Virus record (IMG/VR): IMGVR_UViG_3300048115_000126
Location: 1-42,169 of that record
Origin: a virus
Reading direction: 5' to 3' (one strand)
DNA: 42,169 nucleotides
The translations under genes and the position numbers were made by a program. Shown here piece by piece: positions 28,756 through 42,169 of the stretch; position 1 is the first letter of the stretch; every line of letters begins with the position of its first letter. A model generated the notes under the pieces. That model was not told where the DNA came from. It did no database searches and saw nothing but the letters and a program-made list of their open reading frames with translations.

Positions 28756-28789
28756 AGCCAGTCATCCTTCGGGATGGCTGGCTTTTTTT
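28756..28789 (+). terminator. Rho-independent terminator closing the first early operon
   Basis: AGCCAGTCATCC pairs with GGATGGCTGGCT (one G-U pair) around a TTCG loop, followed by a run of seven T residues. This is the strongest terminator in the window and lies 19 bases after the stop of the 279-aa gene. Confidence 0.93.
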
Positions 28790-29452: not shown

Positions 29453-29755
29453 ATGGATTTAGATTTAGATAAAGCACTCAACTTACTCAGTCCAATGGAG
29501 CGTAACATTCTATACTTGCGCTACGGTCTTGACAACGGCAGTCCAAAGACTCTTGAAGATATTGGAGAAGAGTATGGTATTACTCGTGAACGTATACGTC
29601 AGCTCGAAGCCAAAGCATTACGTAAGCTTCGTCAACCTGACATGGTTCGCATCATCATCAAACACGTAGACAGCCTCCCCGCACAAGGCGAGGAGGCTGA
29701 ACACAACAACAATACGAATGATAACAATAAACAACACCGAGTGGATGGGTTGTAA
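29453..29755 (+). CDS. Stand-alone sigma-70 region 4 protein (100 aa)
   Basis: Residues 12-62 match region 4 of primary sigma factors with striking closeness: [18 protein letters not shown], then [30 protein letters not shown]. The -35-recognition residues R45, E46 and Q50 (numbering here) are in place. Regions 1-3 are absent: the protein begins 11 residues before region 4 and ends with a Gln/Asn-rich tail ([14 protein letters not shown]). By family knowledge this part binds the -35 element and the RNA polymerase beta flap. Without region 2 it cannot work as a full sigma factor, so it may act as a co-activator or competitor that redirects host polymerase. The phage has no RNA polymerase of its own. 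Confidence 0.9.
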
Positions 29756-29838: not shown

Positions 29839-30063
29839 ATGGCTAATGTAACAATCCGCTACGGTCTTACAAACTCTGTAACTCGTAGCTTCGACGACGA
29901 TGTCACTGTCGGTGACGTACTCTCGGATCGCTCGATCCGCATGGCACTCTCAGCTCCAGAAGCTGTAGTTGCTGTTTCCAACGGTGAAACCCTAAGTTCC
30001 ACCAGCCTGATTGAACATTACGATTCAATCACTCTTGAGCAACAAGCCTCAAGCAAAGCATAA
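29839..30063 (+). CDS. Ubiquitin-like beta-grasp protein (74 aa)
   Basis: A small protein with a clear MoaD/ThiS/ubiquitin-like pattern: strand VTIRYGLTNS, strand SVTRSFDDDV, helix TVGDVLSDRSIRMAL, strand AVVAVSNGETLSS, then SLIEHYDSITLEQ. It resembles the Ubl (protein C-like) of PRTRC cassettes. The C-terminus is ASSKA, without the Gly-Gly tail of classical Ubl proteins. It is followed directly by a terminator and then by E2-like, E1-like and JAB genes. It is the likely modifier of this cassette. The family resemblance is by eye; the conjugation role is inferred from the neighbours. Confidence 0.7.
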   Translation: MANVTIRYGLTNSVTRSFDDDVTVGDVLSDRSIRMALSAPEAVVAVSNGETLSSTSLIEHYDSITLEQQASSKA

Positions 30064-30103
30064 TTTCTGCGTAGACCGTAGAGATATTGTATATATATGT
30101 GTT

Positions 30104-30135
30104 ACCTGTCACTCCTTCGGGGGTGGCAGGTTTTT
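30104..30135 (+). terminator. Terminator between the Ubl gene and the E2-like gene
   Basis: ACCTGTCACTCC pairs with GGGGTGGCAGGT (two G-U pairs) around TTCG, followed by five T residues, an A and further T residues. It would let the Ubl be made in excess over the enzymes downstream, which would need read-through or their own promoter. Confidence 0.88.
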
Positions 30136-30147
30136 ATTTTTATAATT

Positions 30148-30945
30148 ATGGCTAATCAAATAAATCAAGAAATCATCCTGCAAGATGGTAAGTTCTACAG
30201 ACGTACAGTCTGCGAGACATTCTTGCAAACTCAAGAAGATGCGTTACGCAACATTGACCAATCTTCTTTGTTCTATGTATCACCGTTCCAACCTAAAAAG
30301 AATGTATACACCGCAGCCTTTATCGGCAGCAACGTATCACCAGACAAACAATACTTCTTCAGGGAAATAGATGGCTTCCACTTCCGTGGTGCTACGCTGA
30401 CTAAAGGAGCAGAAGACAGCGATTACCGAATGCATATAACAGGTAATAGCCCTTGGTCGCTAAACGAAGACATGCCTAGGGTAGCAACTAATACATTCAA
30501 TGATGGACAAGGTCTAATCTGGAAACCAACAGGTTTCAGAATGTTTCTAATGTTTGAATACCTAGCACAAGAAAAAACAAGAGTTAGATCAATGGCACCG
30601 TACATATTCATGTACCATATAGAGAACAAAAAATCATATATACCTAATCTTCCAAATGTATTCGACCGTGGTCAAATCTGCACTGGTGATGATTTCCCAT
30701 GTAACCATGATACATGGTCAGAACTAAATGACGCACAAATGAATCATCTAAAAACAAGTTTCTGTAACAACGATTTGAGGATGAACCCTAGTGATGAGCG
30801 CAATTTCATAGCATTTACATCGCAAGGCGAGACAGTACAGCGTCCTGAATCAATCCCTAACAAAGAAGACAGTGGAAATCAGTACTACGTAGAACCAACC
30901 TTAGAACCAATTACAGAATTTACAAAATGGCTTATCAAGACATAA
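30148..30945 (+). CDS. E2-like protein of a Ubl cassette (PRTRC protein B-like)
   Basis: The frame opens at 30097, but the ATG at 30148 (MANQINQEIILQDGKFYRRT) is chosen because the upstream codons overlap the terminator. It is 265 aa. Residues 150-185 read PYIFMYHIENKKSYIPNLPN, then VFDRGQICTGDD. The NV-x-x-x-G-x-(V/I)-C-x-G pattern with an invariant Cys (C178) is the signature of the divergent prokaryotic E2-like family (family D, PRTRC protein B). Placed between a Ubl and an E1-like protein, this supports a transfer role through C178. The N-terminal 140 residues are unrecognised. Confidence 0.6.
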   Translation: MANQINQEIILQDGKFYRRTVCETFLQTQEDALRNIDQSSLFYVSPFQPKKNVYTAAFIGSNVSPDKQYFFREIDGFHFRGATLTKGAEDSDYRMHITGNSPWSLNEDMPRVATNTFNDGQGLIWKPTGFRMFLMFEYLAQEKTRVRSMAPYIFMYHIENKKSYIPNLPNVFDRGQICTGDDFPCNHDTWSELNDAQMNHLKTSFCNNDLRMNPSDERNFIAFTSQGETVQRPESIPNKEDSGNQYYVEPTLEPITEFTKWLIKT

Positions 30946-31262
30946 CAGACGCACTGAACAATTGTATACCTGTTTATGAGATGGGTCACCACTGTATCAG
31001 TGACATAGGATCAAATCGTCATATACATGCAGCTCGACAAAGAATCAATCGTGAATCAGAACAAGCTGAAGACACGTACGAAGTTGAGCACGGTCTAAAC
31101 CATAAAGAATTACGTATTCTATTTAAAATACTAGCCAAACAACTCCCAGATTGTGGTCGTAAGCGTGGTGCAATACTACGCTACATTAAAGCATTCCAGA
31201 AAGAGGAAACAAAAAATATTCCAAAATCATTACATAAATATCTTAAAACTTATGAAACCTAA
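30927..31262 (+). CDS. Unknown protein inside the Ubl cassette (111 aa)
   Basis: It overlaps the E2-like gene by 19 bases and the E1-like gene by 11, so it is probably a regular part of the operon. The product is helical and charged, with two His/Cys-containing patches (EMGHHCISDIGSNRHIHAAR) and a basic C-terminus (RYIKAFQKEETKNIPKSL). No family recognised. It could be an adaptor, a target or a substrate-recognition part of the cassette; this is only inferred from position. Confidence 0.65.
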   Translation: MAYQDITDALNNCIPVYEMGHHCISDIGSNRHIHAARQRINRESEQAEDTYEVEHGLNHKELRILFKILAKQLPDCGRKRGAILRYIKAFQKEETKNIPKSLHKYLKTYET

Positions 31263-31977
31263 ACTAACAGCAACTATTGTAGGCGCAGGCGGTGTGACCA
31301 GTTACATGTTACCTGCTCTCAAAAACAGTTTTGATCTCACATTGAATCTGTTCGACGGCGACCGATTAGAGAAACACAATCTAGATCGTCAATTGTTTCG
31401 CAACAATCAAGTAGGTGAGTTCAAAGCTCGTGCACTAATGAAGTTATACAACTTCCGTAAATCAGAAGGCATAGCAGTAACCGAGTACTTCAGCACTGAC
31501 TTACTCAACACAGAATACAAAGCACTGTTCGCCAACTGCGACATCATCATCTGTTGTGTGGACAACCACCCAGCACGTAAAGCCTGTGTCGAAGCAGCTA
31601 TACAGTACAAGAAACCAATTGTCATCTGTGCTAACGAGTACCACACAAGTCAAGCGTTCTACTACGACCCCAAGCTTGTGCAAGACTTTCCACACATGCA
31701 TCCATTTGCACGTTATCCAGAGATTGCAACTGACCGCACAGGTAACCCAATCAGTTGCCAAGGTGATGCACTAGAATCAGACCCACAACTTGCAATTGCA
31801 AATCAAGTAGCTGCATCATTCGGCAACTATCTTGTATGGCTATGGCACGGTGTAGATGGTAACTTAGCTAGTCAATACGACGAGATTAAGTACATGCCTG
31901 TTGAGTTTCAATCAACCTTCTCACGCATCCAGACTATCACTTTGGATGACTTAGACAAAATTCAAAAATCAGCTTAA
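31252..31977 (+). CDS. ThiF/E1-like adenylating enzyme
   Basis: The ATG at 31252 (MKPKLTATIVGAGGVTSYML) is preferred to the longer frame, since the nucleotide loop G11-A-G13-G14 then sits near the N-terminus as in the family. It is 241 aa. D35 (LFDGD), N43-L-D45-R46-Q47, K58 and D104 in CCVDNHPARK match the ATP-binding and adenylation residues of ThiF/MoeB/E1 proteins. C169 in GNPISCQGDALESDPQLAIA corresponds to the PSC-x-x-A-E-x-QD segment of PRTRC ThiF and may be the catalytic cysteine. There are no CxxC zinc pairs. It should activate the Ubl by adenylation. Confidence 0.82.
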   Translation: MKPKLTATIVGAGGVTSYMLPALKNSFDLTLNLFDGDRLEKHNLDRQLFRNNQVGEFKARALMKLYNFRKSEGIAVTEYFSTDLLNTEYKALFANCDIIICCVDNHPARKACVEAAIQYKKPIVICANEYHTSQAFYYDPKLVQDFPHMHPFARYPEIATDRTGNPISCQGDALESDPQLAIANQVAASFGNYLVWLWHGVDGNLASQYDEIKYMPVEFQSTFSRIQTITLDDLDKIQKSA

Positions 31978-33116
31978 TGGTTATACACGACAACAAAGTA
32001 TACGAACAAGTCACTACTGACTTGTTCACGGTGTTCAAAGAAGTTGATACACCTTTAACACCAGACATTGAACCTGAGTTTCACGGCAAACCCATACCAA
32101 TGTCTATGTGGCATGACATCATGCACTGCATGAAACAAACACAAGATAAGTTCAACTCCGAAGCACTTGTGTTCTTGTTCTATGACACCAGCAACACAGA
32201 ACCTTGGTCGTGGTGGTTGCCACCGCAACAGACCAACGGTATGACTGTCAAGTCGTTACCCGACGATCCTGAGTACAAGAAGCAACGTGCAATGTACCCT
32301 GATCTAATGCTTGGTACTGTCCACCATCACTGCACAAGCTCAGCGTTTCAATCAGGCACTGACGAAGCTGACGAAGTAAACCGTGAGGGTCTACACTTTA
32401 CAATCGGTCATCTTGACAAACCTAAGTTTGACGTACACTTCCGTATGTCACTTGGTGGTCAATGCATTGAAATGGATGCACACACATACATTGAATCTGT
32501 ACGTTCACCGTTCAAAAAGAATGTTAAAGTATCAGACGAAGTGTACAATGCAGTTATTCAGCGCATGACTAAAGATGAAATGCTAGACTACAATCCAGAC
32601 AAACAAGTAGATCATTCTGCTTTGTTTGACAATATACACAAGCCTGCAATTACTATGGGTTTCAAATCTAAAAGTGATTACGGACTTGGCTACAGCAACA
32701 AAGCGTGGTTCGATGCCAGAGAACCATACATTAACAATTATACAAAATCTAAAAAAAACTCGCACGAAGAAGTCGCAGATGACTTAATCACTCAAGTGTT
32801 CACAGACTACGAATATGAAGACATTCTTAACAACTATTACCACCATATCGGTGATAACACATCTATACAAAGACTTGCAACATCAGAAGCAACTGAAGAA
32901 GACTTGCGACAAGATTTGCTCAAAGCTTTCGAAGATGAAACATTCCAAACCACTCAAGACGGTAGAAAGTTCCTTAAACAAATTGAAGCATTCCTTCAAG
33001 AACAAAAGAGATTCGGTGTTGACAGCACAATCACAGACCTCCAATATGGGCTCTCACAACTTAACTTTGAAGAAGGAAGCACAATTCAACCAATGGATAC
33101 GGAGGCAGTTTTATGA
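31977..33116 (+). CDS. JAB/JAMM metallopeptidase with C-terminal extension
   Basis: The 379-aa protein starts at the TAATG overlap with the E1 stop. H116-x-H118-x7-S126-x2-D129 (HHHCTSSAFQSGTD) is a perfect JAMM zinc motif, and E62 in a preceding hydrophobic strand (SEALVFLFYD) is the likely catalytic Glu. Such enzymes remove or process ubiquitin-like modifiers. Residues about 165-379 are an extension unlike a JAB core: a mostly helical region with LRQDLLKAFEDETFQ and FLKQIEAFLQEQKRFG. In PRTRC systems JAB is protein A. Its 3' end overlaps the nuclease gene by 71 bases. Confidence 0.85.
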   Translation: MVIHDNKVYEQVTTDLFTVFKEVDTPLTPDIEPEFHGKPIPMSMWHDIMHCMKQTQDKFNSEALVFLFYDTSNTEPWSWWLPPQQTNGMTVKSLPDDPEYKKQRAMYPDLMLGTVHHHCTSSAFQSGTDEADEVNREGLHFTIGHLDKPKFDVHFRMSLGGQCIEMDAHTYIESVRSPFKKNVKVSDEVYNAVIQRMTKDEMLDYNPDKQVDHSALFDNIHKPAITMGFKSKSDYGLGYSNKAWFDAREPYINNYTKSKKNSHEEVADDLITQVFTDYEYEDILNNYYHHIGDNTSIQRLATSEATEEDLRQDLLKAFEDETFQTTQDGRKFLKQIEAFLQEQKRFGVDSTITDLQYGLSQLNFEEGSTIQPMDTEAVL

Positions 33117-33465
33117 ACAAACCGACGGAAAACTTGTTGTACAGCGTATCGAGAATACTACGTCTAACGGAGTTCCTGATATCTTGGTTATCTTGCAAGA
33201 TAGAGTACTACTTATTGAGAGCAAGTTTGAGACTGGAAAGGTACGTCCTGAACAGTCGGCGTTCCAGATCAAATGTAACGAAGTCATCAAAGACAGCGTC
33301 AACAAATGCATCACACTCACAGCCTATCCAAAGACCAAGAGATTTGTAATGCGTAGGTTTGATTCATCTTGCATTGGTGAGACTGGGATTGAAGACCCAT
33401 GTCCAGTAACATTCTCACTTGACCCAACAGGGTTCAAAGACTTCTTTAACTATATAACTAAATAA
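33046..33465 (+). CDS. VRR-NUC-type PD-(D/E)XK nuclease (139 aa)
   Basis: The start at 33046 (MGSHNLTLKKEAQFNQWIRR) is chosen over an upstream in-frame start because the nuclease core begins there. Residues 41-60 read NGVPDILVI then LLIESKF: D45 and E58-x-K60 form the PD-(D/E)XK active site, and R34 with the preceding helix completes the VRR-NUC arrangement. It probably cuts branched DNA or acts in recombination. It overlaps the JAB gene, which suggests shared transcription but not necessarily a functional link with the Ubl cassette. Confidence 0.8.
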   Translation: MGSHNLTLKKEAQFNQWIRRQFYEQTDGKLVVQRIENTTSNGVPDILVILQDRVLLIESKFETGKVRPEQSAFQIKCNEVIKDSVNKCITLTAYPKTKRFVMRRFDSSCIGETGIEDPCPVTFSLDPTGFKDFFNYITK

Positions 33466-40646: not shown

Positions 40647-42061
40647 TCTACAAAACAAAACCACTCAAGCATCAAGAAGATGCTGTCAATAGATTTCACA
40701 AACAACCTTACGGTGCTCTATTCTGTGAGATGGGTACTGGTAAGACTAAGATTGTCCTTGACATCTTACGTAACTCCACTGACTTATTCGAAGCTGTAGT
40801 TATTGCTCCCAACGGACTGCACCACAACTGGGCTATCAACGAGATACCTAAACACATTGGCAATCCCGAACTCAACCCTGTAGATGTCTACTGTTGGAAG
40901 GGACCAATCAAGACTAAAAAAGGTAAACAAGAGTTTGGTAGATTCCTAAAGCCTGAGTCATCACGTATCTTACTTATCAATGTCGAAGCCCTCCGTACTT
41001 CGTCTGGCTTTGAGACTGTGTCTGCTTTTTTGCAGACTTGTTGCGGTCTGAAACATATGATCATTGATGAATCCACGTGCATTAAGAATCCCAAAGCTAT
41101 CCAAACAAAACGTGTGCTTGACTTAGCTCAGTGCGTTGACCGACGTTGGATACTCAACGGTACACCGATTACCCAGAGTCCCCTTGACCTGTTTACTCAG
41201 TGCCGATTCCTCAGCAAAAACTCAATACCTTTCAATACTTACACTGCATTCAAACACTCCTTTGCCATTGAAACAGTGGTCACTATGGGTAGCCGAGCGT
41301 TTCGTAAGATTATTGGATACCAGAACCTTGAACAATTGACCAAGTTACTTGAACCGTTTACCTTGAGAATTGAAAAGAAAGATTGCCTTGACCTACCAGA
41401 CAAGACGTTTACACAACAAGCTATCGAACTTACCCATAAACAAAAGCGTATCTATAACAGTATGAAAGATGACTGTTTAGCATTTCTTGAAAGTGGTGAA
41501 CTCGTTACATCGACCTTGGCACTAACCAAGATCGTAAAGCTACACCAAATTCTTACAGGGTTCGTGACCGATGACGAAGGCGTAGAACACCCAATTGAAA
41601 ACAACAGAATAGCTGCTCTCATGCAAATAGCTGAGACTACAAAGCCGTTGGTCGTGTTCTGCGCTTATCGTCAAAACGTCAAAGACATATCTGAAGCGTT
41701 AAACGACAAGTACCCCAACAGGGTGGTCAAGTTCTCAGGTGACCAATCGACCACTGAACGAAATAGTGCTGTGGCTAGATTTCAAGAAGGTGATGCAGAC
41801 TTCTTTGTTTGCACATCAGCAGCTGCAAAGGGTTTGACATTACACCGTGCATCGACAATGGTATATTACTCAAACAACTACAGCCTTGAAACACGATTAC
41901 AAAGTCAAGACCGCATCCACCGTATTGGTCAAAATAATAAGTGTACATACATTGACCTTATTGTCCCAAATACAATTGACGATGCAATACTTAAACGATT
42001 AGACGAAAAAAAAGAACTGTCCAGCATGGTGTTGGACGACTTAATAGAAATTATAAAATGA
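40643..42061 (+). CDS. SNF2/SWI2-type DNA helicase (complete copy)
   Basis: 472 aa. Walker A GTGKT (31-35), Walker B D142-E143-S-T, motif III LNGTPITQSPLDLF, motif V TSAAAKGLTL and motif VI SQDRIHRIGQ (421-430), all intact. The N-terminal 25 residues (KPLKHQEDAVNRFHKQPYGA) are the usual Q-motif region. It overlaps its neighbours on both sides by ATGA. Such small Snf2-like ATPases sit beside AEP primases in several mobile elements. Its 3' two thirds are matched by the partial copy at 3-1058. Confidence 0.92.
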   Translation: MIYKTKPLKHQEDAVNRFHKQPYGALFCEMGTGKTKIVLDILRNSTDLFEAVVIAPNGLHHNWAINEIPKHIGNPELNPVDVYCWKGPIKTKKGKQEFGRFLKPESSRILLINVEALRTSSGFETVSAFLQTCCGLKHMIIDESTCIKNPKAIQTKRVLDLAQCVDRRWILNGTPITQSPLDLFTQCRFLSKNSIPFNTYTAFKHSFAIETVVTMGSRAFRKIIGYQNLEQLTKLLEPFTLRIEKKDCLDLPDKTFTQQAIELTHKQKRIYNSMKDDCLAFLESGELVTSTLALTKIVKLHQILTGFVTDDEGVEHPIENNRIAALMQIAETTKPLVVFCAYRQNVKDISEALNDKYPNRVVKFSGDQSTTERNSAVARFQEGDADFFVCTSAAAKGLTLHRASTMVYYSNNYSLETRLQSQDRIHRIGQNNKCTYIDLIVPNTIDDAILKRLDEKKELSSMVLDDLIEIIK

Positions 42062-42169
42062 CCGCACCTGCAACAAACCGACCACTCTTCGACCAGAGCG
42101 AAGTTAAAATTCTTGAACGAGGACTACACACTATGAGCTTAGCTTGTGAAGCCCTATCTAAACAAAACG
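41004..42169. repeat. Right copy of diverged long terminal duplication
   Basis: Collinear with 1-1166 without indels. The last 154 bases (42016-42169) are almost identical to 1013-1166; the rest is diverged. See the left copy. Confidence 0.9.
42058..42169 (+). CDS. Small coiled-coil protein, 5' part (cut by window end)
   Basis: Starts MTAPATNRPLFDQSEVKILE at the ATGA overlap with the helicase stop and is the second copy of the 62-aa gene at 1055-1243. It ends at the window edge after 37 codons. It differs from the first copy by Ala3 for Thr3. Confidence 0.85.
   Translation, partial: MTAPATNRPLFDQSEVKILERGLHTMSLACEALSKQN

Follow-up and report, generated by a model that had tools for sequence, protein, structure and literature searches.

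The window analyzed here is the whole 42,169-nucleotide stretch of DNA from IMG/VR virus record IMGVR_UViG_3300048115_000126 (positions 1 to 42,169). Between positions 29839 and 33116, its plus strand carries five open reading frames (ORFs), encoding in order a ubiquitin-like modifier (Ubl), an E2-like protein, a protein that we call X, an E1-like adenylating enzyme and a JAB metallopeptidase (Table 1). An original prediction, made from the letters of the window, had claimed five plus-strand genes here and had read them as a complete Ubl, E2, E1 and JAB cassette; all five ORFs are present, and the completeness of the set is supported by the evidence given below. Neighboring genes overlap at the E2/X, X/E1 and E1/JAB junctions. 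An alternative, longer E2 frame starting with the ATG from 30097 is unlikely to be used, since it would begin before the terminator hairpin that follows the Ubl gene. Direct scans of the window Ubl, E2-like protein and X against Pfam, PHROGs, NCBIfam and PADLOC gave nothing credible.

Table 1. Predicted features of the cassette and of the nuclease gene next to it
Feature	Position	Strand	Basis
Ubl, 74-aa ubiquitin-like modifier	29839..30063	+	AlphaFold2 model, Foldseek and PDB profile matches, tail conservation
Intrinsic-terminator-like hairpin between Ubl and E2, predicted attenuator	30104..30131	+	Hairpin scans; z -5.65 for 30060-30150
E2-like protein, 265 aa, Prok-E2_D-like, presumptive active-site C178	30148..30945	+	Invariant residues, family-member matches, hhalign
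X, 111 aa	30927..31262	+	Alignment: invariant GRKRGAI.RYI core
E1-like (ThiF/MoeB-fold) adenylating enzyme, 241 aa	31252..31977	+	Pfam ThiF, residue check, alignment, tree
JAB/JAMM metallopeptidase, 379 aa	31977..33116	+	TIGR03735 below cut-off, motif, hhalign
VRR_NUC / Holliday-junction-resolvase-like nuclease, overlaps JAB gene	33046..33465	+	Pfam VRR_NUC E 4e-4 (just under cut-off), PHROG matches

The first gene product appears to be a genuine relative of ubiquitin in its fold. The AlphaFold2 model, built from a 33-sequence alignment, has a mean predicted local distance difference test score (pLDDT) of 92.2 and a beta-grasp layout ending in a floppy, disordered tail. The best Ubl-fold matches returned by Foldseek from the PDB are archaeal and human ubiquitin (template modeling score about 0.7), and a sequence profile search of the PDB likewise puts ubiquitins first (E 0.0024-0.014), bearing out the earlier assignment of this protein to the beta-grasp fold.

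The tail is conserved as well as disordered in the model, as would suit an exposed C-terminus. Of 43 complete distinct clade-A proteins, 42 have a tail that reads QASSKA before the stop codon, and the other has QASCKA. Among 44 distinct genes encoding QASSKA, every tail codon varies synonymously and all of the changes are synonymous, so the tail is held by protein-level selection and not by recent common descent of the DNA. The terminal residue in clade A is Ala, in place of the Gly or Gly-Gly that might be looked for. In the distant clades the Ubl ends in K-A, K-G, K-Q or K-N; the Ubls of the distant phages described below end in ...(A/S)(N/S)xKA, often with 1-10 further residues after it, and the one at locus L115 has a terminal KGS. 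The cGAS donors of cyclic-oligonucleotide-based antiphage signaling systems (CBASS) have Gly or Ala as the last residue, and conjugation occurs in a system of this kind whose donor ends in Ala (PMC10097602), so an Ala terminus is workable.

The penultimate residue of the window Ubl, K73, is its sole lysine and is shared without exception by 33 Ubls, the most divergent of which have about 19% identity, and 37 of 41 distinct clade-A proteins have no lysine in the Ubl body. Given a lysine content of 7.1% in 13 other window proteins, the chance of finding none in 68 residues is about 0.007, a value that applies to one protein, the Ubls being related to one another and hence not independent. The lysine-free body suggests that the modifier would be attached as single tags rather than as chains. 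One distant member (L112, 712-1071) has an N-terminal extension of KKPAAKKPAAKKP repeats.

The E1-like enzyme matches Pfam ThiF at 2.6e-17. When phage sequences were aligned with those of PRTRC cassettes, cyanobacterial plasmids, crAss-like phages, MoeB and ThiF, the GxGG motif, D35, D37, N43, R46, Q47, K58 and D104, along with C169, showed no variation among the phage E1s of either group considered here, in agreement with the claim that the ATP-binding residues are complete. The E1 tree, which was midpoint rooted and has some long branches, places 22 phage E1s in one clade (support 99/96) adjoining the PRTRC and cyanobacterial plasmid enzymes and one gut sequence, with MoeB and ThiF outside. 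The HxHx7SxxD motif noted earlier in the JAB protein is found without exception in the 56 distinct JABs of more than 280 aa, and the metal-site residues E62, H116, H118, S126 and D129 are kept in at least 97% of these. The catalytic part spans about residues 35-166 and is followed by a poorly conserved C-terminal extension. The only NCBIfam match of this protein is TIGR03735 (PRTRC_A), at E 6e-7 and below the cut-off for that family.

The E2-like protein is the most divergent part of the cassette. Its motif LPNVFDRGQICTG holds the presumptive active-site cysteine, and N170, C178, D209 and L210 are invariant in 37 family members having 11-46% identity to the window protein, the lowest values being 11-18%. 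Prok-E2_D of Pfam matches 7 of these 37 (best 5e-8), the window protein itself being unmatched, and hhalign aligns the family with PRTRC_B over 23-31 columns around the active-site cysteine only. A profile search of the PDB reached an E2 enzyme at E = 1 only, which we did not count, and the structural model (pLDDT 87.9) retrieved two uncharacterized proteins only from a viral structure library. Taken together, the profile evidence gives modest support to a relationship with E2 enzymes, with a ubiquitin-conjugating (UBC) fold unconfirmed by structure search, and the activity as an E2 is presumed from sequence.

The conserved core of X holds within its own group, and library scans found no family match for this protein. 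Distant phages have small proteins in the same slot, with no detectable homology to the window X. Homology of X to PRTRC_E or PRTRC_F was considered and rejected. It is possible that X acts as an adaptor between E1 and E2, or as a substrate-recognition factor.

A search of IMG/VR with the E1 sequence yielded 39 loci. When the window genes were mapped onto these, the order Ubl-E2-X-E1-JAB-nuclease was kept wherever the contig reaches, and such conservation of gene order rules out a chance arrangement. The full set is present in 17 of the 18 contigs that extend more than 5 kb upstream of a related DNA polymerase; in the remaining one the Ubl gene is cut by the contig end. The co-occurrence in related phages that the original prediction called for is thus seen in all spanning loci, and the cassette appears to be core to its group of uncultivated phages rather than patchy. 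The contigs of this group are metagenomic.

Profile searching added a more distant group, L107-L119, on contigs of 24-113 kb and with E1s 30-39% identical, in which every member keeps Ubl, E2, E1 and JAB, arranged as in the window. Three of these (L107, L110 and L112) have replication genes in common with the window, and their cassettes are near primase and helicase genes. In the stretches examined of the others (L108, L109, L111 and L113-L119), none of the 27 window proteins tested has any other homologue. Since the distant phages carry the block, most of them with no other detectable homology to the window, the cassette seems to behave as one unit, in at least two apparent phage backgrounds. 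The nuclease gene adjoins the cassette in clade A and is near it in L107, L110 and L112; we regard it as a conserved neighbor and do not claim it as a member of the cascade. In loci L108-L119, E1 and JAB are separated by an extra gene encoding about 200-540 aa. Several of these extra proteins share the motif LIKxAPxNxxxR...IKxWIEFN and a C-terminal motif rich in tyrosine and aspartate, such as YDYHNHNATD.

Cellular genomes in GTDB gave a single match, a contig (L052, NZ_NZMB01000001.1) in a Sneathiella metagenome-assembled genome. It was rejected as a cellular homologue because the identity of its portal, terminase and polymerase genes to those of the window is 70-86% (portal 86%, terminase 85%); it is thus a phage contig of the window's group. 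Its presence in the Sneathiella assembly may be a binning artefact or a hint of the host. Among the named phages in INPHARED there is no close relative of the E1 or the JAB.

The gap between the Ubl and E2 genes of the window contains a hairpin with a 12-bp stem, a UUCG loop and a U-tract. A strict scan found terminator-like hairpins in this gap in 27 of 52 distinct loci, compared to 2 of 536 control windows placed in E1 genes, and an energy scan (<= -14 kcal/mol) found them in 25 of 52 loci and 2 of 140 controls. The hairpins of distant phages have quite different sequences. With a terminator-like hairpin behind the Ubl gene and overlaps among the E2-X-E1-JAB genes, the layout suggests that more tag is produced than enzyme. 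At 28756-28783, 3' of a gene for a 279-aa protein, is another strong hairpin of this terminator-like kind, also with a UUCG loop. Just upstream of the cassette, 29453-29755 encodes a possible regulator, a small protein that consists of sigma-70 region 4 standing alone (Pfam 5e-19); only some relatives have it.

Elsewhere, the window encodes portal/connector, tail tubular and internal virion proteins of the podovirus kind, and the nearest named relatives of the portal include pelagiphage HTVC010P. The setting had been described earlier as a T7-like phage; this is right in outline. The ORFs scanned yielded no single-subunit RNA polymerase. The cassette is on the strand of the replication genes, opposite the structural block. 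The primase gene at 37595-39136 matches the archaeo-eukaryotic primase domain of TOTE systems (Pfam 2e-13). The window ends, 1-1166 and 41004-42169, both contain the same helicase 3' region and are 79% identical (248 mismatches in 1166); as an exact repeat the overlap is limited to the last 105 bases. The contig seems to close on itself via the allele of a second strain, so that, at about 41 kb, the genome is probably close to complete, and strains may be mixed in the assembly.

Conjugation of ubiquitin-like proteins in bacteria has so far been known mainly as a means by which hosts fight phages, or from uncharacterized plasmid cassettes. The best explanation for the cassette, and in our judgment a probable one, is a phage-encoded system for the reversible covalent conjugation of its own Ubl. 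The E1 would adenylate the C-terminal Ala74 of the Ubl and take it over as a thioester, for which C169 is the candidate cysteine, and the Ubl would then be passed to C178 of the E2-like protein. The latter, perhaps with X, would link the Ubl to target proteins through a lysine or another amine, and the JAB protein would take it off again; JAB may also trim the Ubl in those distant phages with 1-10 residues past the K-A end. Tagging would mostly be single, with the tag in excess over the enzymes.

Several observations weigh against this explanation. The conjugation itself, which we consider likely, is predicted from genes and models. C169 is no proof of thioester transfer, because MoeB and ThiF share this cysteine. 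The model of the E2-like protein found no E2 among the PDB matches listed by Foldseek, so that the earlier description of this protein as E2-like is backed by the invariant cysteine motif and the profile evidence and not by fold retrieval. The conserved His downstream of the active-site cysteine in type-6d E2s is absent, the 37 family members having no invariant His after C178 and N207-x-D209-L210 instead. No E3-like protein was found, and part of the loci show no Ubl-E2 hairpin by either scan.

The strand on which the cassette lies makes action early in infection somewhat the better guess. Because the genes are on the replication strand, opposite the structural genes, early action on replication, host or defense proteins is likelier than action on the virion. 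The chances for a host or defense protein as the target appear about evenly balanced; a phage replication protein is an unlikely target, and a virion protein distinctly unlikely. We lean slightly toward regarding these cassettes as a phage family of Ubl conjugation systems in its own right, its tail ending in K-A rather than Gly and its transcriptional attenuator setting the ratio of tag to enzymes, core to one lineage and spread across unrelated phages, and mono-tagging host or phage proteins in the course of host takeover. If the reading as a conjugation system is correct, phages would be employing protein tagging for purposes of their own, as a core module of a lineage, and the five genes would offer a compact system in which to study Ubl conjugation with an alanine terminus and its evolution.

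Modification of the virion, either by conjugation of the Ubl to a structural protein or through a role in assembly such as that proposed for the lambda tail Ubl/JAB pair, has the precedent of the lambdoid tail proteins I (Ubl) and K (JAB), which are likewise a phage-encoded Ubl and JAB (PMC1779556). Those genes are in the tail operon, however, the JAB is joined to an NlpC/P60 domain, and the neighborhoods described have no E1 or E2. Since the cassette here has replication genes around it and the structural genes are on the opposite strand, and since in L107, L110 and L112 it is near primase and helicase genes, we consider a virion role improbable.

The Ubl might instead be a sulfur carrier, thiocarboxylated by the E1 in the manner of ThiS or MoaD to supply sulfur for modification of tRNA, a cofactor or DNA, with JAB trimming the carrier. 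The ThiF/MoeB fold of the E1 and its superfamily cysteine, conserved in MoeB and ThiF too, would suit this role, as would the match of one family Ubl to Pfam ThiS (8e-4), and Ubl-JAB-E1 sets are known in siderophore and sulfur operons (PMC1779556). Sulfur transfer is nevertheless very improbable because the E2-like protein, with its invariant cysteine, is never missing. In addition, the window ORFs scanned include no rhodanese, desulfurase or sulfur-acceptor enzyme, the tail has Ala at its end and not Gly-Gly, and the tree sets the phage E1s beside PRTRC-type enzymes and apart from MoeB and ThiF.

Bil (bacterial ISG15-like) systems are a host-encoded defense with the same set of Ubl, E2, E1 and JAB genes as the phage cassette, differing in being host-encoded and defensive. 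Type II CBASS is similar in its activities: Cap2 and Cap3 provide E1 and E2 activities with a deconjugase, but the donor is a cGAS-like enzyme and not a beta-grasp Ubl, E1 and E2 are one protein, and the system serves host defense (PMC10097602). No cGAS-like gene is among the window ORFs scanned. Given that host defense by Ubl conjugation exists (PMC10097602), the cassette could be a decoy that jams or strips such systems, its JAB removing host conjugates or its Ubl occupying the host E1 and E2. The phage E1 does match the E1-E2 models of PADLOC at 4e-12, as other E1-like enzymes might; the match to BilD, Bil having been compared through PADLOC only, is weak (E 0.007), and no Bil or Cap protein is a close match. 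A decoy would not need the Ubl, E2, E1 and JAB all catalytically intact, and the cassette is core to its phage group, whereas genes driven by defense are often patchy. We therefore hold a decoy to be highly improbable; a counter-defense role more generally would be one option among several.

Returning to the conjugation system, our survey of the literature, consisting mainly of open papers with few preprints, found no description of a complete one encoded by a phage. The crAss-like phages DAC17 (cultured; L161, 2895-5151) and cr128_1 (L162, 2974-5148) have adjacent JAB-like and E1-like genes, but R46 is missing from their E1, which groups with MoeB/ThiF in the tree (the tree tool flags this join as possibly false), and no homologue of the window E2 or Ubl is detectable nearby. 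The segment 1096-1701 of L162 begins with a possible Ubl-like stretch, judged by eye only. The human gut phage fragment MT835919 (L163, 7-2761) has JAB, E1 and a DNA-sliding-clamp-like protein in a row, the clamp again by eye only. Two cyanobacterial plasmids (L168, 3645-6798; L049, 1739-6795) encode a protein of 274-290 aa, an E2 and an E1, and L168 also a JAB; their E2s are related to the phage E2s (1e-14 and 8e-9) and their E1s branch with PRTRC.

The nearest known systems are the type-6d operons of Iyer, Burroughs and Aravind 2006 (PMC1779556), together with the PRTRC plasmid cassettes. These have, on plasmids, a neighboring stand-alone Ubl, an E2 with a conserved cysteine, a ThiF/E1 and a JAB, the last two clearly homologous to the phage proteins. 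The E1 aligns with PRTRC_ThiF by hhalign at 99% (E 8e-20), and JAB with PRTRC_A at E 4e-6 with the metal-site residues matched, over the catalytic domain only, the alignment to PRTRC_A starting at its residue 74 and leaving the N-terminal part (JAB-N, with conserved Arg and Trp) unaligned. The PRTRC resemblance proposed originally therefore stands for the E1 and JAB, and modestly for the E2; for the Ubl it is not detectable by profile comparison, and it fails for the PRTRC-specific features. PRTRC Ubls end in ...AKG(AYA) or TKG, and it is plausible that a K-(G/A) end is common to both kinds of system. Capture of a true PRTRC system by a phage is scarcely credible despite the homologous E1 and JAB and distant E2, being contradicted already by the tree, in which the phage E1 clade is next to and not inside that of PRTRC (99/96 and 99/97), and by the missing genes, ParB and PRTRC_E having no match in six frames of the window. 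Scores are far under the NCBIfam cut-offs (29 against 101.8 bits for PRTRC_A, 44 against 144.75 for PRTRC_ThiF), and with the missing genes and the separate E1 clade they rule out membership. The phage cassette also differs in having no JAB-N match and no downstream E2 His, in the terminal Ala of its K-A end where PRTRC has Gly, and in its order, Ubl-E2-X-E1-JAB as opposed to ParB-E-C(Ubl)-F-B(E2)-A(JAB)-ThiF. On these comparisons, the phage cassette is a relative of the PRTRC/type-6d systems and not a member of them.

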